Source: Arthrobacter citreus
Lineage (GTDB): Bacteria > Actinomycetota > Actinomycetes > Actinomycetales > Micrococcaceae
Direction of reading: 5' to 3'
Assembly (NCBI RefSeq): GCF_009192745.1
Contig: NZ_VTFV01000002.1
Location: forward strand, 558,001-622,000
Length of the DNA stretch: 64,000 nt
The notes beneath the pieces were generated by a model, which saw only the letters and a program-made list of their open reading frames with translations, made no database searches and had not been told where the DNA came from. Below are positions 27,065 to 38,153 of the stretch, in pieces. How positions within the stretch are numbered: position 1 is the stretch's first letter; each line of letters starts with the position of its first letter. Position numbers and translations under genes: made by a program.

Positions 27065-28078
27065 TTAGGAGACCTCAATGGTGACGACGGCGGGACCCCG
27101 CGTGAGCCCGGGATTCCCGGCTTCCGCGGCGGAATCTGTGACGGCGCGCGACACGCAGCAGCACATTTTCTCCCGGGCGCGCTGCTGGCGTTCGCTGTAG
27201 AAGACGTCCCGGTGGTCCACTTTGCCTTCCAGGTTCAGGATCCGGACTTCGCAGAGCCCGCACTCGCCCTTGCGGCAGTCGAACATCATGTCCGCTCCGG
27301 CGTCTTCGAGGGCTTCGAGCATGGACCGGCCCGGCCCCACCCGGGTTTCCAGTCCCAGGCGCGGCACACGCACAATGAACTCTTCCGGGCGGTACCAGCC
27401 GGAGTTGCCGAACGTCTCATAGCGCAGGTTGGCGGGGTCCAGGCCGTGGTCCCGCCAGGACCGGCGCACGGCGTCCATGAGGCGGATCGGCCCGCACATG
27501 TACAGTTCCGTTCCGTCCTGCAGCCCTTCGACCAATTCCGTCACGGACAGCCCGCTTCCCTCGGCGTCCACATGGATTTCAAGGGCGGCACCGTGCTCTG
27601 CCTGCAGTTCAGCCAGGTACGCCATGGCGCTGCGGTTCCGTCCGGCATAGACCAGCCGGTAGTCGGCCTTTACGTTCTTCAGGACCCGGGCCATGTTCAG
27701 GATGGCGGTGATGCCCACGCCCCCCGCCAGCAGGACGTAGTGCGGTGCCCCCACCCGCAGCGGAAAGTTCTGCAGGGGTTGGGTTATTTCCAGCTCATCG
27801 CCCGGCGCCAGGGTATGCATGAAGATGGATCCGCCGCGGGACGCCGCGGTGCGGAACACGCTGATCGCCAGTTCCCTGCCGCCGTCGTGCGTTTCCACGA
27901 TTGAGTAGGACCGGCGGTGCTTCTCACCATCAATGGTGACCATGACGTCCACGTGGCTTCCCGCCGCAGCCGGAACCGGCTGCCCGGGTGCGAGCACTAT
28001 GCGGCGGATGCCCTCGGCCACGTCCCGGGTTTCCCGGACGACGGCGCGCTGCCAGACTTCGACGTTCGTTGCTGCCAT
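27065..28078 (-). CDS. vanB: Vanillate O-demethylase reductase subunit (PDR/VanB family)
   Basis: A 337-residue flavin and iron-sulfur reductase. It has an FMN-binding barrel (RSYSIVETHDG), an NAD domain (VLLAGGVGITAILNMARVL, LYMCGPIRLMDAVRR) and a C-terminal plant-type 2Fe-2S ferredoxin (FDCRKGECGLCEVRIL plus a final cysteine in KMCCCVS). It transfers electrons from NAD(P)H to the Rieske oxygenase encoded three bases upstream. Length is close to VanB of corynebacteria. Another methoxyaromatic demethylase is possible. Confidence 0.82.
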   Translation of the reverse strand: MAATNVEVWQRAVVRETRDVAEGIRRIVLAPGQPVPAAAGSHVDVMVTIDGEKHRRSYSIVETHDGGRELAISVFRTAASRGGSIFMHTLAPGDELEITQPLQNFPLRVGAPHYVLLAGGVGITAILNMARVLKNVKADYRLVYAGRNRSAMAYLAELQAEHGAALEIHVDAEGSGLSVTELVEGLQDGTELYMCGPIRLMDAVRRSWRDHGLDPANLRYETFGNSGWYRPEEFIVRVPRLGLETRVGPGRSMLEALEDAGADMMFDCRKGECGLCEVRILNLEGKVDHRDVFYSERQQRAREKMCCCVSRAVTDSAAEAGNPGLTRGPAVVTIEVS

Positions 28079-28081
28079 CGC

Positions 28082-29239
28082 CTAGCCCAGCACCGCGCTG
28101 GCCCGGCTGCCGTCCGGAAGCCGGCTGCCATCCGGACGCCGGCCCTCGGCCGCAAGCCGGCGCTCGATCAGCCGCCGCACCCACATGCCGCCGGCGTCGA
28201 TGTTCAGGTTGTAGAACTCGTAGTCCGGGTTCGCGTCGATGGCTGCCTGCTGGGCAGCGAGCATTTCCTCATCCTCGCCGAACACGCCGTGGACGCCGTT
28301 GCGCAGCTGGGTGGTGATGAGCTGGCTGTCCAGCCGGTAGTTGCGCATAAAGGCCCAGAAATAGTGGCAGGTTTTGGCCGTCTCCGGGGTAATGGTGTTC
28401 ATCACGAACCCGTTCACGCCCTGGCTGCGGTCACCCTGCGGGGCCCCCGTTCCGGCCTTGGCCACGCCCACATCAATGTTGATGGTGGACGGCGCACGGT
28501 AGGTGATGATCTGCCACCGGTCTACCTTGCCTTCGAACCCGGGGAACTTGTCCCGCATGTTCTTGAGCCAGAAGGGCGGCGGATCGATGTTGAGCATCCA
28601 GCGGGTGACGGTTACGGTGTCGTCGTCGTGCGTGACGATGAATTCGGATTCGCTGAGCTCATCCTGGCCGATGGAGGAGGAGTGGACGAACTCTTCATGG
28701 GTGAGATCCATGAGGTTGTCCAGCACCAGCTGGTAGTTGCAGGGCGCAAAGATTGTCTCGCCGTCACCGGCCCACTCATCGGATGACAGCTGGTGCATGT
28801 CCGGCACGGAGTCCGGGTCGGCCAGCGTGGGATCACCCAGCCACACCCAGACGTAGCGGTGGCGTTCCACCACCGGGAAGGACGGCACGGTGGCGCTGGG
28901 ATTGATGGTTTCCTGTGCCGGCATGGAGATGCAGCGGCCCGCGGAATTGTAGACGATCCCGTGGTACGGGCACTGGATTCCGTCCCGGCCGGTGGTCTTG
29001 CCCATGGACAGCGGGGCCAGCCGGTGCCAGCAGGCATCGGCCAGGGCAACGGCCTTGCCGTCCTCGGTCCGGTAGAGCGCCAGGGGGCGGTCGGCGATCC
29101 GGCGGGACATGGGCTTGCGGGTCACCTCGTGGTCCCAGGCAGCCACGTACCAGGCATTCAGCGGGTAGCCCAGCACCTTGCTGGTGGTGGAGCTCTGGGC
29201 CTGGATGTTGCTTACGGCAGCGGTCGAGACGGCGGTCAT
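28082..29239 (-). CDS. vanA: Vanillate O-demethylase oxygenase subunit (Rieske)
   Basis: A 385-residue ring-type oxygenase. The Rieske cluster ligands are in ACWHRLAPLSMG and CPYHGIVYNSAGR (C-x-H, C-x2-H). The mononuclear iron site is in LMDLTHEEFVHSSSIG (Asp, two His). VLGYPLNAWYVAAWDHEV at the N-terminus is typical of VanA. It converts vanillate to protocatechuate and formaldehyde. GGAAGGA precedes ATG 29239. First gene of vanAB, divergent from a PadR/VanR gene, with two operator copies between. No vanillate permease is next to it. Confidence 0.83.
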   Translation of the reverse strand: MTAVSTAAVSNIQAQSSTTSKVLGYPLNAWYVAAWDHEVTRKPMSRRIADRPLALYRTEDGKAVALADACWHRLAPLSMGKTTGRDGIQCPYHGIVYNSAGRCISMPAQETINPSATVPSFPVVERHRYVWVWLGDPTLADPDSVPDMHQLSSDEWAGDGETIFAPCNYQLVLDNLMDLTHEEFVHSSSIGQDELSESEFIVTHDDDTVTVTRWMLNIDPPPFWLKNMRDKFPGFEGKVDRWQIITYRAPSTINIDVGVAKAGTGAPQGDRSQGVNGFVMNTITPETAKTCHYFWAFMRNYRLDSQLITTQLRNGVHGVFGEDEEMLAAQQAAIDANPDYEFYNLNIDAGGMWVRRLIERRLAAEGRRPDGSRLPDGSRASAVLG

Positions 29240-29281
29240 TGCGTTCCTTCCAAAAGCATCAGCACTGATGCGGCGGTACAA

Positions 29282-31059: not shown

Positions 31060-31710
31060 CTATAGAGGCTGGGCACCCACAGCCATCCGGGCGATAATCC
31101 GGTAACGTTCGGCCAGTTCCTCCGGTGAGAGTTCACCGTCCAGCCGGAACCACTGCGCGACGCCGGTGCACATGGTGACGACGGCGGTGCTTGCTTCGCG
31201 CGGGTGCGGTGCGGCAAAGATGCCCGCGGCCCTTCCCTCCTCCAGGATCCTGTCCATAAGCCGCTGCTGCCGGTCCCGCGCCGCGATGTGAGCGGCGCGT
31301 GCGTCCGGTTCCAGGCTGCGGATCTCGCTGAAGGCTATAAAGGCCTGGCCGCGGCGCCGGGCGTGGAAGAGCACCAGGCATTCCACCAGCAGGTCGAACT
31401 GCCGGGAGAGGTCGCTGCCGGCCTCGGAAACGGCCTGCTCGCTGCGGACCCACAGGTCATTCATGGCGTGGGAGGCGATGGCGACCAACAGTGCCTGTTT
31501 CGAGGGGTAGTAGTGGTAGAGCCCGGGAACGGACAGCCCGGTGCGCGCGGCCAGCTGGCGGATGGTGGTGCCGTGGTAGCCGTGCTCCATGAAGCACTCC
31601 AGCGCGCTGGCGAGCATTGGCGGCAGATCATCCACCGCGTAGTCGCGCCAGCCCCGTGCGGCCGGCGGCCGAGATGCGGAGCCGGGTTCCTTCGGTGCAG
31701 CTTTAGTCAT
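31060..31710 (-). CDS. TetR family regulator
   Basis: A 216-residue regulator with an N-terminal helix-turn-helix (LASALECFMEHGYHGTTIRQ, TGLSVPGLYHYYPSKQALLV) and an all-helical ligand domain. It is divergent from the ligase-SDR-dehydrogenase-kinase operon; a perfect 14-bp palindrome lies in between, just after that operon's promoter. It probably represses the operon and is released by an acyl-CoA intermediate, by analogy with similar CoA-responsive TetR proteins. Confidence 0.87.
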   Translation of the reverse strand: MTKAAPKEPGSASRPPAARGWRDYAVDDLPPMLASALECFMEHGYHGTTIRQLAARTGLSVPGLYHYYPSKQALLVAIASHAMNDLWVRSEQAVSEAGSDLSRQFDLLVECLVLFHARRRGQAFIAFSEIRSLEPDARAAHIAARDRQQRLMDRILEEGRAAGIFAAPHPREASTAVVTMCTGVAQWFRLDGELSPEELAERYRIIARMAVGAQPL

Positions 31711-31752: not shown

Positions 31753-31804
31753 TTGACACTACCTTGTGACGTTCTTCACACTACTTCTACCGAGCGATCG
31801 CTCG
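31753..31804 (+). promoter_or_regulatory. Promoter and TetR operator of the hydroxy-acid operon
   Basis: -35 TTGACA at 31753-31758, then CACACT at 31777-31782 as -10 (18-base spacer). The palindrome CGAGCGATCGCTCG occupies 31791-31804, covering the likely transcription start, as expected for TetR repression. Confidence 0.65.
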
Positions 31805-31844
31805 CAAGGTTGTTGCGGAACCATGACAGGGAAGCAGGCAGGCA

Positions 31845-33512
31845 GTGGAGGACATGGCGCTCTCACCGGCAGCATGGGCCGGTGCCTATCCGCCCGGGCT
31901 CTCGACCACGCTCGACGTCCGGACCCCCTCGCTGGTGGATGCGTGGAAGGCCCGCGTCCGGGCCAACCCCGGCGGGACAGCGATCGCCTACTTCGACGGC
32001 CGGCTCACCGCCGCGGAACTCGATGAGCTCTCCGACGCGTTCGCGGCTGCGCTTGAAAACCGGGGAATCGGGCACGGCGACCGCATCGGCATCCAGCTGC
32101 AGAACATCCCGCAGTACGTAATCGCGTTCCTGGGGCTCTGGAAACTGGGCGCCATCGCCGTGCTGATGAACCCGATGTATAAGGAACGCGAGCTGCGGCA
32201 CCTGATTGAAGATTCCGGGGCAAGAGGCATTCTCGCCGATGATTCGCTCTATCCGGCCACGAAGGCTGCCGCTGCCGGCAGCGCCGTTGAATGGATCGTC
32301 ACCACGTCCGGGCTGGAATACCAGAGCCGCTGTGATCCCCGGATCTTCAGCTCCGCGGAACCGGCGCAGCCCTCGCCGGACGGGGACATGGCCGCCTGGA
32401 TCGCGGAGTATGCCGGCCGCGCCCCGGCGCCCCGCACCCTCAACCAGGACGACGTCGCCCTCCTCGCCTACACATCCGGAACCACGGGGGCGCCGAAGGG
32501 CGCCATGAACACGCACGGCAACATCCTCAACGTCGCGGCGACCTGCTCGGCCTGGATGGGGCTGGAACCCGGGGACACCGTACTTGCCGTCGCGCCGCTG
32601 TTCCACATCACCGGCGCCGTGATCGACGCCGCCGCTCCGCTGCTCGCGGACACCACCCTGGTCATGGTGAACCGCACTGATCCGGCGGTGGTGGTGGACG
32701 CCTTCGCCGAACACCGGGTTACGTGCACCACCGGATCGATCACCGTCTTCAACGCCATCTATCAGGTTCCGGATGCCACAGCCGAACACTTCGCCTCCGC
32801 CAAGACCCTGTATTCCGGCGGCGCACCGATCCCGCCGTCGACCGTGCACGCGTTCAAGGAGCGCTTCGGCGCGTACATCCACAACATCTTCGGAATGACG
32901 GAGACAACGTCGGCAGTCATCGGCGTTCCGCCGGGCGTGCAGGCGCCCGTGGATCCCGCCAGCGGCAGCCTGTCCATCGGGCTGCCGCTGCCCAACGTCA
33001 CCGCGCGCATCATCGACACAGCCGGAAACGCGCTGCCGTTCGGTGAACAGGGAGAACTCGAGCTCTCCGGGCCGCAGATCGTCCCCGGCTACTGGAACAA
33101 CCCCGAAGCCACCGCCCGCACCATGCCCGGCGGACGGCTGCGCACCGGTGACGTCGCCACAATGGACGAATCCGGCTGGGTGTACATCGTTGACCGCATG
33201 AAGGACCAGATCAACGTTTCCGGCTACAAGGTCTGGCCGCGCGAGGTGGAGGACGTGCTCTACGAACATCCAGCCGTCTATGAAGCCGCCGTCGTCGGGA
33301 TGCCCGATGCGTACCGCGGCGAAACCGTCGTCGCGTACGTCTCGCTGAAAGCCGGGCATACGGCCACTGAAGAAGAACTGATTGCCTTCACCAAGGAACA
33401 CCTGGCCGCCTACAAGTACCCGCGGTCCGTGCACGTGATCGATGACCTGCCCAAGACGCAGACCGGCAAGATCCGCCGCCGGGAACTGCGGAAGAACCCA
33501 AAGGAAGGATGA
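31845..33512 (+). CDS. AMP-dependent acyl-CoA ligase of the hydroxy-acid operon
   Basis: A 555-residue ANL ligase. P-loop YTSGTTGAPKGAMNTH, A5 NIFGMTETTSAVIG, a hinge DESGWVYIVDRMKDQINVSG and catalytic lysine in QTGKIRRRELRK. It would activate the free acid that enters through the transporter at the end of the operon. Start uncertain: GTG 31845 has AGGGAAG ten bases upstream; ATG 31854 has GGAGG but too close. First gene of an operon with 3 to -4 base spacing, controlled by the divergent TetR gene. Confidence 0.88.
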   Translation: MEDMALSPAAWAGAYPPGLSTTLDVRTPSLVDAWKARVRANPGGTAIAYFDGRLTAAELDELSDAFAAALENRGIGHGDRIGIQLQNIPQYVIAFLGLWKLGAIAVLMNPMYKERELRHLIEDSGARGILADDSLYPATKAAAAGSAVEWIVTTSGLEYQSRCDPRIFSSAEPAQPSPDGDMAAWIAEYAGRAPAPRTLNQDDVALLAYTSGTTGAPKGAMNTHGNILNVAATCSAWMGLEPGDTVLAVAPLFHITGAVIDAAAPLLADTTLVMVNRTDPAVVVDAFAEHRVTCTTGSITVFNAIYQVPDATAEHFASAKTLYSGGAPIPPSTVHAFKERFGAYIHNIFGMTETTSAVIGVPPGVQAPVDPASGSLSIGLPLPNVTARIIDTAGNALPFGEQGELELSGPQIVPGYWNNPEATARTMPGGRLRTGDVATMDESGWVYIVDRMKDQINVSGYKVWPREVEDVLYEHPAVYEAAVVGMPDAYRGETVVAYVSLKAGHTATEEELIAFTKEHLAAYKYPRSVHVIDDLPKTQTGKIRRRELRKNPKEG

Positions 33513-33515
33513 TCC

Positions 33516-34298
33516 GTGGCAATTGACCGTGGGCTCCAAGGAAAACTCCAAGGAAAAACAGCAATCGTCACCGGCGCGAGCCGGGGGATCGGCCTCGCCA
33601 TTGCCCGGGACCTGGTGTCCCACGGTGTACGGGTCTGCATGACGGCCCGGAAGGCAGATGTCCTGAAGGAAGCCGCGGACAGCTTTCCGGACGGCACCGT
33701 CATCGCCGTTGCGGGCGCCTCCGACGACCCGGATCACCGCAGTACCGTTCTGGACACCGTCGCCCGGGAATTCGGCGGGCTGGACATCCTGGTCAATAAC
33801 GCCGGCATCAACCCGGTCTTCGGTCCGCTGGTGGAAATGGACCTGGAAGCTGCCCGGAAGATTTTCGAAGTCAACGTCCTCGGCACCCTCGCCTGGGTGC
33901 AGGACACTGTGGCCCACACCGGCCTCGGGTTCCGTGAACGCGGCGGATCGGTGGTCAACCTGTCCTCGGTCTCGGGGGATACCCCGTCACCGGGCATCGG
34001 GCTCTACGGCATCAGCAAAGCCGCCGTGTCCCACCTGACCCGGTCCCTCGCCGTCGAACTCGGGCCGGAGATCCGCGTCAACGCGGTTTCCCCGGCTGTA
34101 GTGAAGACCCGCTTCTCCCGGGCACTGTATGAGGGCAAGGAAGAAGCTGTCACCAGCGCCTATCCGCTGGGCCGGCTGGGCACACCCGAAGACGTTGCCA
34201 ACGCAGTGACGTATCTGGTCTCCCCGGACGCATCATGGGTCACCGGGCAGGTACTGACGCTCGACGGCGGCCTGCTGGCCGCGGGAGGTACCGCCTGA
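33516..34298 (+). CDS. SDR family oxidoreductase of the hydroxy-acid operon
   Basis: A 260-residue classical SDR: VTGASRGIGLAIARDL, NNAGINPVFGPL, catalytic Tyr164/Lys168 in LYGISKAAV, and WVTGQVLTLDGGLLA at the end. AAGGAAGG precedes the GTG start, three bases after the ligase stop. In a levulinate-like pathway this would be the reductase making the 4-hydroxyacyl-CoA. It is a close relative of the SDR at 53246-54028, sharing PV(F/Y)GPL(V/L)(E/D)(M/L)DL(E/D)AARKI; both neighbour an acyl-CoA dehydrogenase. Confidence 0.86.
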   Translation: MAIDRGLQGKLQGKTAIVTGASRGIGLAIARDLVSHGVRVCMTARKADVLKEAADSFPDGTVIAVAGASDDPDHRSTVLDTVAREFGGLDILVNNAGINPVFGPLVEMDLEAARKIFEVNVLGTLAWVQDTVAHTGLGFRERGGSVVNLSSVSGDTPSPGIGLYGISKAAVSHLTRSLAVELGPEIRVNAVSPAVVKTRFSRALYEGKEEAVTSAYPLGRLGTPEDVANAVTYLVSPDASWVTGQVLTLDGGLLAAGGTA

Positions 34299-35548
34299 TG
34301 AGCGCCCCAGCACACACCGCCGTCAGCCGGGAAGCCGTGGAAGACCTCCGGCTGCGAACCCGGGCATTTATCCGGGACGTGGTGATTCCCGCTGAGCCCG
34401 TCCCGGGGGAGGCCCTGACTGAGTCCGAGCGCGCCAGGCTGCAGCAGGCCGCCAAGAACGCCGGAGTCTTCGCGCCGCACGTGCCCGTGGAGTACGGCGG
34501 CCAGGGGCTGCCGCTGCAGGACTGGCCGGAAATCTTCGAAGAAGCCGGTTATTCCCCCATCGGCCCCACCGCCCTGAACTGCATGGCACCGGACGAGGGC
34601 AACATGCACATGCTTGAACTCATCGGCACCCCGGAGCAGAAGCAGCAGTACCTGGTGCCGCTGGCTGCCGGGGACGTCCGCTCCTGTTTCGGCATGACCG
34701 AACCGCATCCCGGCGCGGGATCGGACCCCGACGCCCTGCTGACCACCGCGACGAAGGGCGACGGCACCTGGCTTATCAACGGCCACAAACGCTTCACCTC
34801 CGGTGCCATCGGTGCGGGCTTCTGCATCGTCATGGCCCGGACGGAGGCCGACGGCGATACCCCGGCCGGCGCAACCATGTTCCTGGTGGACATGGACAAC
34901 CCGGGCATCCGCGTGGGGGAGCACATCCACACCATCGACCGGACCATCGGCGGCGGACACCCGCACGTGTACTTCGAGAACTGCGCCGTCCCGGAAGACG
35001 CCGTGCTGGGCGAAGTGGGTCTGGGCTTCAAATACGCCCAGGTCCGGCTGGGCCCGGCCCGGCTCACACACTGCATGCGCTGGCTGGGCCTGGCCCGCCG
35101 CTCGCTGGACATTGCGCTGGACCGCACCGGCCGGCGGGAAATCTTCGGTTCCCGGATCAGTGAGCTGGGGCTGGCGCAGGAACTCATTGCGCAGAGCGTG
35201 ATCGACGTTGAAACCTCGGCCGCCATCATCACCCGCACGGCGGAACTGCTGGCAGCGGACCCGAGAGCCGGGTCGGCCATGTCATCGGTGGCCAAGGTGC
35301 ACTGCTCCGAGGCCGTGTACCGGGTGATCGACCGCTGCGTGCAGCTGTGCGGCGGTGACGGCGTGTCCGACGGGCTGCCGCTGGCCCAGTACCTCAATGA
35401 AGTCCGGCCGTTCCGGATCTACGACGGTTCGAATGAGACCCATAAATGGGCGATCGCACGGCGGGCTTCGGCCCGGCGCCGGAAGGAAGTGGAAGCCGGC
35501 GCGCCTGACCAGGGCAACGCCGTCGTACGCGGGGAGCAGGAGCAGTGA
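34298..35548 (+). CDS. Acyl-CoA dehydrogenase, ACAD10/11-like
   Basis: A 416-residue FAD enzyme. APDEGNMHMLELIGTPEQKQ, RSCFGMTEPHPGAGSDPDAL and LCGGDGVSDGLPLAQYLNE follow the acyl-CoA dehydrogenase fold; the APD-GNM segment is typical of the ACAD10/11 branch. These enzymes process 4-phosphoacyl-CoA made by a partner kinase, converting 4-hydroxy acids into normal beta-oxidation substrates. ATG 34298 overlaps the SDR stop as TGATG; the next gene overlaps the stop by four bases and encodes just such a kinase. Confidence 0.87.
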   Translation: MSAPAHTAVSREAVEDLRLRTRAFIRDVVIPAEPVPGEALTESERARLQQAAKNAGVFAPHVPVEYGGQGLPLQDWPEIFEEAGYSPIGPTALNCMAPDEGNMHMLELIGTPEQKQQYLVPLAAGDVRSCFGMTEPHPGAGSDPDALLTTATKGDGTWLINGHKRFTSGAIGAGFCIVMARTEADGDTPAGATMFLVDMDNPGIRVGEHIHTIDRTIGGGHPHVYFENCAVPEDAVLGEVGLGFKYAQVRLGPARLTHCMRWLGLARRSLDIALDRTGRREIFGSRISELGLAQELIAQSVIDVETSAAIITRTAELLAADPRAGSAMSSVAKVHCSEAVYRVIDRCVQLCGGDGVSDGLPLAQYLNEVRPFRIYDGSNETHKWAIARRASARRRKEVEAGAPDQGNAVVRGEQEQ

Positions 35549-36636
35549 GCGGGCTTCAGACCCGTGCCGACGGGACCGAAGTAGTGTCTACCGCTTCCGA
35601 GGCTGCCTCATTGGAGAGACCGCCGCTGCTGGTGCTCGACGTCGTCACCGGCTTCCTGGACGAGCACGGACTTGGCAGCGGTCAGCTTGCCTGGGAACGC
35701 ATCGGTGACGGGCAGTCCAACATCACCTACCGGATCACCCGCGGCGGGGAGTCCTTTGTGCTGCGCCGCGGCCCGCGTCCGCCGCTTCCCCGGTCCACGC
35801 ATGACATGGTCCGGGAAGCCCGGGTCCAGCAGCTGCTGGGCGGTGAGGGGATTCCGGTGCCGCAGATCCTTGCGGTTTGCAGTGACGAGACCCTGCTGGG
35901 TGTGCCGTTCTACGTCATGTCCTACCTGGACGGGCACGTCATAACCGGATCCGCCCCTGAACACCTGGATACCCCGGAGCAGCGCGGAGATATCAGCCGC
36001 GCAGTCGTCGAAACGCTGGCCCGGCTGCACGGGGTGGACGTGACCGGACCGGAGCTTTCCGGACTGGGCCGGGCGGAGGGTTACCTGGAGCGGCAGGTGA
36101 AGCGCTTTGCCGGGCTGTGGGAAGCGAACACCCTTAGGGAGGTGTCGCTGGTGGCGCAGGTCGCCCGGGACCTGGGCGCGAAGATCCCGGTGTCGCAGCG
36201 CGCCTCGGTGGTGCATGGCGACTACCGGCTGGGGAACCTGATGTTCGGGCGGCAGCAGCCTGCTACCGTCACGGGGATCCTGGACTGGGAGATGGCCACC
36301 CTGGGGGATCCGCTGGCAGACCTGGGCTACCTGGCAGCGACCTACGCCGAACCAGGTGCCGAGCAGACCGTGATGGACCTGACGTCAGTGACCCGGCAGC
36401 CCGGGTACTGGAGCCGGGACCAGCTGATCTCCGGTTATGCGGACAGAACCGGACTCGATGTCAGTGCCCTGCCCTGGTATCAGGCGCTGGCGCTGTGGAA
36501 GTCGGCCATTTTCTGCGAAGCGATCTACACGCGTTACCTCAAGGGCGAACGCCCCGGCGACACCTTCGGACCCACCCTCGAAGAAGGCGTCCCCCTGCTG
36601 CTCGAATCAGCCGCCGAAATCCTGGGGAGAAGCTAG
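35545..36636 (+). CDS. Phosphotransferase (ACAD10/11-type kinase, APH fold)
   Basis: A 363-residue aminoglycoside-phosphotransferase-fold kinase. IGDGQSNITYRITRGGESFV and LRRGPRPPLPRSTHDMVREA are the nucleotide-binding lobe of the ACAD10/11 N-terminal-like group; VVHGDYRLGNLMFG and GILDWEMATLGDPLADLGYL are the catalytic and metal loops. Predicted to phosphorylate the 4-hydroxyl of an acyl-CoA. GTG start overlapping the dehydrogenase stop (GTGA) shows tight coupling. Antibiotic resistance is unlikely. Confidence 0.85.
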   Translation: MSGLQTRADGTEVVSTASEAASLERPPLLVLDVVTGFLDEHGLGSGQLAWERIGDGQSNITYRITRGGESFVLRRGPRPPLPRSTHDMVREARVQQLLGGEGIPVPQILAVCSDETLLGVPFYVMSYLDGHVITGSAPEHLDTPEQRGDISRAVVETLARLHGVDVTGPELSGLGRAEGYLERQVKRFAGLWEANTLREVSLVAQVARDLGAKIPVSQRASVVHGDYRLGNLMFGRQQPATVTGILDWEMATLGDPLADLGYLAATYAEPGAEQTVMDLTSVTRQPGYWSRDQLISGYADRTGLDVSALPWYQALALWKSAIFCEAIYTRYLKGERPGDTFGPTLEEGVPLLLESAAEILGRS

Positions 36637-36665
36637 CTTTCCCGTTTTCTGCAGTCCCACCCCAC

Positions 36666-36723
36666 CGAGATGACAGAAACTGCCCGTATCGGGCGCCAAA
36701 CGGGCAGTTTCTGCTATTTCGAT
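36666..36723. repeat. 58-base palindromic repeat, copy A
   Basis: Begins CGAGAT, ends TCGAT; stem CAGAAACTGCCCGT (36674-36687) with 36700-36713, loop 12 bases. It lies between the kinase stop and the transporter start, probably terminating part of the upstream transcript. Copy B at 38096-38153 is collinear with it, identical at about 46 of 58 positions, differences concentrated in the loop. Confidence 0.85.
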
Positions 36724-36759
36724 GAGACACCCCGATGCAACACTGGCAAAGGAGCCATC

Positions 36760-38070
36760 ATGTCTGCACAGCCTTCGGCTGCCGTCCCGGCGCGGCCGGC
36801 GTCAGCCACCGCAGGTAAGAAGAAGTCACTGCTGGCAACCACAGCCGGCAACATCCTGGAGTGGTACGAGTGGAGCGCCTACGCGGTCTTCGCCCCCTTC
36901 ATCGCCGCAGCGATGTTCAACCCGGACGACCCCGTCTCGGCGCTGCTCTCGACGCTCGCCGTCTTCGCCGTCGGCTTCCTCATGCGGCCGCTGGGCGGCA
37001 TCGTGTTTGGCCGGGTCGCTGACCGCCGGGGCCGCAAGTTCGTCCTGATCACCACCATGCTGATGATGGCCGGCGGATCCCTGGTGATCGGGCTGATGCC
37101 GGACTACCAGACGGTCGGCGTCTGGGCCTCGGTCATCCTGCTTGCGGCCCGCATTGGGCAGGGCTTCGCGCACGGCGGCGAGTCAGCCACGGCCAACACC
37201 TACATCGCGGAAATCGCTCCGAACCACCGCCGCGGCATGTGGGGCAGCATCGTGTTCGTGGCGATCTTCGCCGGCTCAATCCTGGCGTACACGGTGGGCG
37301 GGTCGGTGACCGCTGTGCTGGGGGAGAGCGCCGTGGCCGAATGGGGATGGCGGATTCCGTTCATCCTGGGGGCCTTCCTGGCGCTCGCCGCCCTGTACCT
37401 GCGCAAGGGCATGCTTGAAAGCGAAGTGTTCGACGACGCCGCTGCCGCTGCCGCCGGTGCGCAGGCTCCGGCTCCGCTGCCGCGCCGGCAGATCGTCCGG
37501 GCGATCATCCTGATGATCGCCATGACCTCGGGTATCACGGCCGCGCACTACACCTGGACCTCCTACGCGTCCACCTACGCCATCACGCAGCAGGACATGC
37601 CTGCGGCATCGGCGTACTGGATGTCCGTGATCGCCCAGCTGATTGCGCTGGTTTCGCTGCCGTTCTGGGGCAGGCTTTCGGATTCGCTGGGGCGCCGTCC
37701 GCTGATGCTGGGGTTCGCAGGACTGATGATCCTGCTGCAGCTGCCGCTGATGGGCCTGATCAGCTCCGCTCCGTGGACCCTGCTGGCGGCGTCCTCGCTG
37801 GCCCTCGTCGTCGTCGCCATTCCCGGAGCCCTGCTCTCGGCAACCCTGTCGGAGAACTTCCCCACCAAGGTGCGCACCCAGGGCATCGGGTTTGCCTACT
37901 CGGTCTCGGTGGCGGTCTTCGGCGGCACCGCGCCCTACCTGAACGCGCAGCTGATCGAATGGAATGTGGGCTGGATGTCCAGCGTCTACATCATGATCCT
38001 CTGCGGCTGCACCGCCGTCGCCGTGTGGCTGATGCCCGAGACCAAGGGGATCGACCTCAAGGACGCCTAA
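36760..38070 (+). CDS. MFS transporter, metabolite:H+ symporter (MHS) type
   Basis: A 436-residue 12-helix permease. GNILEWYEWSAYAVFAPFIA and RPLGGIVFGRVADRRGRK are the hallmark N-terminal MHS motifs; LGRRP appears again in the second half. MHS proteins import alpha-ketoglutarate, shikimate, dicarboxylates and similar acids with protons. AAAGGAG precedes ATG 36760. Placed after the kinase in the same direction, it is probably the uptake system for the acid degraded by the operon, although repeat A in between may lower its expression or give it a separate promoter. Confidence 0.87.
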   Translation: MSAQPSAAVPARPASATAGKKKSLLATTAGNILEWYEWSAYAVFAPFIAAAMFNPDDPVSALLSTLAVFAVGFLMRPLGGIVFGRVADRRGRKFVLITTMLMMAGGSLVIGLMPDYQTVGVWASVILLAARIGQGFAHGGESATANTYIAEIAPNHRRGMWGSIVFVAIFAGSILAYTVGGSVTAVLGESAVAEWGWRIPFILGAFLALAALYLRKGMLESEVFDDAAAAAAGAQAPAPLPRRQIVRAIILMIAMTSGITAAHYTWTSYASTYAITQQDMPAASAYWMSVIAQLIALVSLPFWGRLSDSLGRRPLMLGFAGLMILLQLPLMGLISSAPWTLLAASSLALVVVAIPGALLSATLSENFPTKVRTQGIGFAYSVSVAVFGGTAPYLNAQLIEWNVGWMSSVYIMILCGCTAVAVWLMPETKGIDLKDA

Positions 38071-38095: not shown

Positions 38096-38153
38096 CGAGA
38101 TCACAGAAACTGCCCGTATGAACGCTCATACGGGCAGTTTCTGTCATGTCGAT
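38096..38153. repeat. 58-base palindromic repeat, copy B
   Basis: Perfect 19-bp stem (38103-38121 with 38126-38144), loop ACGC, same flanks CGAGAT and TCGAT as copy A and identical spacing. Located between the transporter gene and the convergent ABC permease gene, where it can act as a bidirectional terminator. Confidence 0.88.

Follow-up and report, generated by a model that had tools for sequence, protein, structure and literature searches.

Does a six-gene locus of the soil actinobacterium Arthrobacter citreus encode a version of the phosphorylation and elimination route known from the Pseudomonas putida lva operon and from mammalian ACAD10 and ACAD11, and can it do so without LvaB, the helper protein on which Pseudomonas depends? 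The locus lies within the 64,000-nucleotide stretch of contig NZ_VTFV01000002.1 that was analyzed here (the window). An open reading frame check and Pfam matches place there a divergent TetR gene, then genes for an acyl-CoA ligase, a short-chain dehydrogenase/reductase (SDR), an acyl-CoA dehydrogenase-like protein (ACAD) and a kinase, and then a gene for a transporter of the MHS family. The first-pass annotation had read these genes as an operon with the logic of levulinate or 4-hydroxy acid catabolism. The six genes are real, and those for the four enzymes follow one another with overlaps or, in one case, a 3-nt gap. We give a probability of roughly 70% to the reading that they form a TetR-controlled cassette that takes a short-chain 4-oxo or 4-hydroxy acid from outside the cell and processes it by phosphorylation and elimination, without LvaB. 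The chemistry itself, in which a phosphate is added and then removed as in the lva operon and ACAD10/11, is very likely to have been predicted correctly.

The ACAD as a predicted phosphate-eliminating lyase

The ACAD (34298–35548, plus strand) contains the motifs APDEGNM and MTEPHPGAGSDP that had suggested a likeness to ACAD10/11. By sequence, its closest solved structure is mouse ACAD11 (9e-55), with 4hr3 of M. abscessus a close second, and the same two entries came out on top when the folds of solved structures were compared with a model of the ACAD (pLDDT 86). According to PMC12440821, R626, H634 and R637 beside the catalytic D753 of mouse ACAD11 hold the 4-phosphate, and their mutation stops phosphate elimination. 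The equivalent residues of the window ACAD are R250, H258, R261 and D376.

To place this site among relatives, 133 loci were examined, all selected for an ACAD or a kinase similar to that of the window. Micrococcaceae and plasmids contributed 46, a genome scan 80 and further plasmid stretches 7. They include three duplicate pairs (L039/L065, L059/L109, L070/L111), and 128 of them hold a related ACAD; L051, L069, L074, L075 and L076 do not and were not counted. All four residues are kept in each of the 131 aligned rows (the 128 loci, the window, ACAD11 and 4hr3). Of nine other ACAD matches in the host genome seven were aligned, and none of the seven has any of the four residues, E or G standing in place of D; the general ACAD arginine, R255 in the window protein, is present in all seven. 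An ordinary beta-oxidation ACAD was ruled out on these grounds. These residues, together with the clade described next, strongly support a mechanism in which the enzyme uses D376, R250, H258 and R261 with FAD to expel phosphate.

Phylogeny gave a finer placement. The ACAD falls in the LvaC clade and apart from the ACAD11 clade, with support of 99 in a quick tree (71 rows, three ordinary ACADs as outgroup) and of 100/100 against ACAD11-type rows in a more careful one (48 rows). Its identity is 45% to the LvaC of L044, an annotated plasmid copy of the lva operon used here as reference, and 37% to ACAD11. The first-pass annotation was therefore right to place the dehydrogenase among LvaA/ACAD10-11-type systems: it is inside the LvaC clade and has the active-site residues common to ACAD10, ACAD11 and LvaC. 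PMC11342911 gives the ACAD10 and ACAD11 domains as 62% and 56% identical to P. putida LvaC; the value obtained here for L044 LvaC against mouse ACAD11, 37%, differs from those figures.

The kinase and its ACAD11-like features

By sequence, the solved structures closest to the kinase (35545–36636, plus strand) are 9o56 (8e-55) and ACAD11 (6e-42), followed by 25-hydroxysteroid kinase (25-HSK; 2e-14). The kinase has the catalytic D226 and N231, as well as E91 and D247, and both of the CoA-contacting arginines described for ACAD11, R90 and R183. These two arginines and the catalytic Asp were recovered again using three alignment methods. The other residue numbers of PMC12440821 agree with the printed chain once shifted by one, but R86 does not, and this residue was assigned from its description as the Arg beside the alpha-C Glu.

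Identity is 31% to the kinase stretch of ACAD11 and 27% to LvaA of L044. In a 67-row tree built with a quick method, six LvaA rows stand alone on a branch with support of 100, and the window kinase lies on the opposite side, with ACAD11 and ACAD11-like kinases. Mouse ACAD11, L041, L077 and L169 have long branches in this tree, and L041 and LvaA may have been drawn together falsely. Orthology with LvaA was ruled out by the separating branch. Of the proposal that the kinase belongs to the LvaA/ACAD10-11 clades, then, the ACAD11 part held and the LvaA part did not. The protein is best described as a putative APH-fold 4-hydroxyacyl-CoA kinase of an LvaB-free, ACAD11-like type. With an ACAD from the LvaC clade and a kinase from the ACAD11 side, the pair is, by its sequences, a mosaic of an LvaC-type lyase and a predicted LvaB-free kinase.

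LvaB and the type of kinase

The LvaB family (DUF6285, PF19802) has no match in the host genome, and matches 2 of 14 controls. The lack of an obvious LvaB partner, first remarked for the operon, thus extends to the whole genome and is systematic among relatives. An LvaA-type kinase lies within 4 kb in 7 of the 128 loci, and LvaB accompanies it in all seven, although in five of these the locus's own kinase and LvaB had been search queries. A kinase of another type lies within 4 kb in 108 loci, none of which has LvaB.

Mapping LvaB on the ACAD tree required three changes, at least two of them forced by well-supported branches, and a single change sufficed in none of 200 bootstrap trees. In Cupriavidus L041 the ACAD is near those of LvaB operons, yet the kinase is LvaB-free, and the same combination is probably found in Ktedonobacteria L169. 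Since these loci combine LvaB-operon-like ACADs with LvaB-free kinases, LvaB is seen, across the sequences compared, to track the type of kinase rather than the lyase.

LvaB might compensate for CoA-contacting arginines that are missing from LvaA. In a first alignment none of six LvaA rows has both arginines (the kinase of L167, in two pieces, was too short, so that the residue table and the tree hold six LvaA proteins). With the three alignment methods, both are absent from the four proteobacterial LvaA proteins and one is absent from Thermus L042; Chloroflexota L171 has both, and LvaB too. As Thermus lacks only one arginine and L171 has both, compensation is a weak, partly supported idea. 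LvaB can also be absent for other causes: PMC6692424 describes a Pseudomonas cluster whose analyzed region has no lvaB and whose kinase is of the LvaA type (59% to LvaA). We tentatively suggest, as a model that may well be wrong, that two interchangeable kinase versions operate around one LvaC-type lyase, LvaA with LvaB or a single ACAD11-type kinase. LvaB would be needed to make good a part of the CoA-binding surface that LvaA either lost or always lacked; a kinase swap would free the system from LvaB, and the actinobacterial cassette would be its widespread LvaB-free form.

Distribution of the cassette

Some kinase match at E 0.001 was found in 116 of 295 genomes of the family, many of the matches being weak or partial. 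Within the window's genus 24 genomes were listed, its own included; 21 of these have a strong match (E ≤1e-145, rounded) and 3 have none. The stable core of the cassette is the SDR–ACAD–kinase triad. Besides the window, the full six-gene set was found in Micrococcaceae L046, L048, L049, L058, L061 and L062, in L094 (Amycolatopsis) and in L095 and L097 (Cryobacterium); the TetR gene of L048 is co-oriented with the operon, and the ligase of L095 was read in two pieces. A thiolase gene lies between the kinase and MHS genes in L097 and L062, the two thiolases being 64% identical. Among Streptomyces loci, L093 and L098 are without the SDR, and neither TetR nor MHS occurs in the stretch around L099 and L102. 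Loci L051 and L069 have the order TetR–ligase–kinase–MHS, with no SDR or ACAD; a second locus in the genome of L051, L052, holds the triad and could supply both. The ACAD and kinase of L101, on a contig labeled as Sporosarcina beigongshangi (Bacillota), group tightly with those of Micrococcaceae L066, and its triad is either a recent transfer or contamination.

One scan found at least 577 related ACAD stretches, and most of the annotated plasmid matches listed go under names like 'acyl-CoA dehydrogenase family protein' or 'phosphotransferase family protein'. A specific name would therefore help many records.

Proposed pathway and substrate

In the proposed pathway, the MHS protein would take up the acid and the ligase, as its family suggests, would form the CoA thioester. 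The SDR would convert the 4-oxo to the 4-hydroxy compound, this direction being part of the proposal. The kinase would then phosphorylate the acyl-CoA at its 4-hydroxyl with no help from LvaB, as its clade, its catalytic and CoA-arginine residues and the absence of LvaB suggest. The ACAD would expel the phosphate to leave a 2-enoyl-CoA, and ordinary beta-oxidation would complete the breakdown. A C5 acid would yield acetyl-CoA and propionyl-CoA, the latter passing to methylcitrate genes elsewhere in the genome. The genome holds six thiolases above cut-off and prpD-prpB-prpC, with PrpD scoring 869, under the model cut-off of 950.

Levulinate (or 4-hydroxyvalerate) is the best single guess for the substrate, though rather less than an even bet. 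We favor it because, LvaB apart, the gene set is that of lva, because LvaE-like ligases replace this ligase in relatives and because an importer is present. Two loci in or adjacent to the window's clade illustrate the replacement. In L138 (Solirubrobacterales), kinase and ACAD are accompanied by a hydrolase, by an SDR resembling LvaD (39%) and by a ligase that shares 48% identity with LvaE; in L168 (Microbacterium), ACAD and kinase are joined by a ligase that also resembles LvaE (48%). The LvaE model gives both ligases their best NCBIfam score, 676 and 576, in either case short of its cut-off of 677.

Several observations weigh against a cassette dedicated to such an acid. The window ligase and SDR are of the same enzyme families as LvaE and LvaD, but only 34% and 31% identical to those of L044, so that the pair alone is no pointer to levulinate. 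The ligase is moreover not diagnostic, because P. putida continues to grow when lvaE is mutated (PMC6692424). Among the window's three closest relatives, L046 alone keeps the full set, L045 being without MHS and L047 without ligase and MHS at the locus, and many relatives of type B (SDR–ACAD–kinase) have no adjoining ligase or MHS gene. The triad of Rhodococcus L040 has carboxylase and AtuA-like genes as neighbors and that of L178 a carboxylase, and a phenol-hydroxylase-type flavoprotein (FAD_binding_3 and Phe_hydrox_dim) adjoins it in L067 (Micrococcaceae) and L101. Finally, a kinase within 4 kb is missing from 13 of the 128 loci. Given the varied neighbors and the type B loci without ligase or MHS, the triad may serve more than one substrate, and the Rhodococcus and other triads among carboxylases and flavoproteins may act on other acids. 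An attempt to infer the substrate from the neighbors of type B triads led to no assignment.

LvaC-type ACADs with the active-site residues and no kinase detected within 4 kb were seen at L118, L120–L124, L127, L128, L133, L134, L137, L172 and L176. Some of these contigs are short, and a partner elsewhere or a different leaving group is conceivable.

Alternative explanations

The alternative that survives best keeps the phosphate elimination and changes the substrate from a C5 acid to a larger 4-hydroxyacyl-CoA, that of a 4-hydroxy fatty acid, a terpenoid or a lactone-derived acid. The neighbors of the Rhodococcus triads and of L067 and L101 speak for it, as does the reported handling of longer chains by ACAD11. 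A dedicated MHS importer, in contrast, fits a small soluble acid, and the LvaE model is the one matched best by the L138 and L168 ligases, purified P. putida LvaE preferring C4–C6 acids (PMC6692424). On balance we consider a larger substrate unlikely, and keep the short-chain acid as the preferred reading.

A second alternative has the kinase act on a CoA-free alcohol and takes the ACAD for an ordinary beta-oxidation dehydrogenase that happens to be nearby. The precedent would be 25-HSK of Sterolibacterium (9fsg; PMC8449060), which also has the APH fold and activates an alcohol for phosphate elimination; its substrate is a CoA-free steroid and its sequence only distantly related to that of the window kinase. 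In a fold search with the predicted kinase model (pLDDT 90), 3dxp, 25-HSK (9fsg and 9ft5, ranks 2–4) and Rv3168 ranked above ACAD11, whose entry 8v3v came at rank 13 with a partial, 242-column alignment, so that fold alone does not choose among them. The APH fold is broad, and 25-HSK keeps the second CoA arginine. It lacks, however, both the Arg and the Glu of the alpha-C pair, and ACAD11 is far closer to the window kinase by the sequence scores given above. Moreover, the ACAD differs from the ordinary type and its gene overlaps that of the kinase by 4 nt. We regard this alternative as very improbable.

A drug-phosphorylating resistance kinase within a fatty-acid operon, suggested by weak matches to APH(3') models (46 bits against a cut-off of 205), was ruled out as scarcely credible, since all listed resistance models are far under cut-off and the clade and the neighbors indicate acyl-CoA chemistry.

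Comparison with known systems

The P. putida lva operon (lvaABCDEFG) has the same four enzyme classes as the window, and its LvaC shares clade and active-site residues with the window ACAD. It differs in having LvaB, in a kinase of another clade, in other ligase and SDR proteins, in a DUF485/acetate-type symporter where the window has MHS, and in a PrpR/LvaR-type regulator where the window has TetR. With mammalian ACAD10 and ACAD11 the window kinase shares its side of the tree, the CoA arginines and the absence of LvaB, and the window ACAD shares the HCMR motif and the Asp base. Unlike the mammalian enzymes, kinase and ACAD are two separate proteins in the window, and they have no HAD domain, a feature of ACAD10. 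PMC11342911 describes LvaA and LvaC orthologues of Burkholderia pseudomallei that could replace the ACAD10 domains in vitro and that resemble ACAD10 more closely than do their P. putida counterparts; as described there, they are a bacterial kinase and ACAD pair like that of the window. Homologues of lvaABCD occur in Alpha-, Beta- and Gammaproteobacteria (Rand 2017, as quoted in PMC6692424).

The kind of pathway is already known from P. putida and mammals, and we judge the actinobacterial LvaB-free form to be a new variant of it. Among the matches listed in the open-licence literature we found no description of an actinobacterial LvaB-free operon; subscription papers lay outside that search. 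The proposal would extend the route of a kinase and an eliminating ACAD beyond Pseudomonas and mammals, to a cassette found in several families of actinobacteria. It would also offer a simpler, two-protein model for ACAD10/11, make the role of LvaB directly testable through kinase swaps, and provide LvaB-free parts for the biotechnological use of levulinate.

Operon layout and regulation

The ligase gene, of the ANL family (31845–33512, plus strand; AMP-binding, 1e-89), starts at GTG 31845 or ATG 31854, and its product is under the cut-off of every NCBIfam model among the best 25 of 109. The SDR gene follows after 3 nt (33516–34298, plus strand; adh_short_C2, 2e-57) and encodes a proposed 4-oxoacyl-CoA/4-hydroxyacyl-CoA oxidoreductase. 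It overlaps the ACAD gene (Acyl-CoA_dh_1, 1e-31) by 1 nt, and the kinase gene (APH, 8e-48) comes next. The tight spacing claimed for the operon holds for these four genes and not for the MHS gene, which lies 123 bp off the kinase gene. The MHS gene (36760–38070, plus strand; MFS_1, 9e-40) probably starts at ATG 36760, with AGGAG upstream, rather than at 36670. Its product, a proposed acid importer, belongs to the metabolite/H+ symporter group 2A0106 (TIGR00883, 2e-103, under the model's cut-off), and the gene adjoins the cassette in several genera.

The TetR-family repressor gene (31060–31710, minus strand; TetR_N, 3e-16, with TetR_C_24) is divergent from the operon, and 19 related TetR genes, with 46–87% identity, occur in loci around the same genes. 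The intergenic sequence CGAGCGATCGCTCG (31791–31804) is a perfect palindrome and a probable TetR operator. It has a single exact copy in the 3.55 Mb host genome, and its reversed control has none. A search allowing up to two mismatches found one site in the window, and shuffles averaged 0.8, so by window count alone the palindrome would not stand out. Its weight comes from conservation: of 29 related regions between a divergent TetR gene and its neighbor, 19 contain CGAGCGNNCGCTCG, L070 and L111 counting as one site and L043, whose TetR is distant and which is without CGAGCGNNCGCTCG, being excluded. TetR would leave this single operator upon binding an intermediate of the pathway, perhaps a CoA thioester.

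A second palindrome, AGAAACTGCCCGT-N12-ACGGGCAGTTTCT, 38 bp long, stands on both sides of the MHS gene, at 36675–36712 (within the gap after the kinase gene) and at 38105–38142. The genome has 26 copies with exact arms, and the reversed control has none. The inner 12 nt vary among copies and are mostly self-complementary, so that the stem seems to be preserved through paired changes. The element seems to be a terminator-like or REP-like family, the copy at 36675–36712 possibly being a partial terminator; a terminator scan of the plus strand did not have this copy among its listed terminators. On the far side of the TetR gene, a VanA/VanB-like pair of Rieske oxygenase and reductase genes (27065–29281, minus strand) was observed, and such a pair stands beside the operon in L045, L046 and L047 too.

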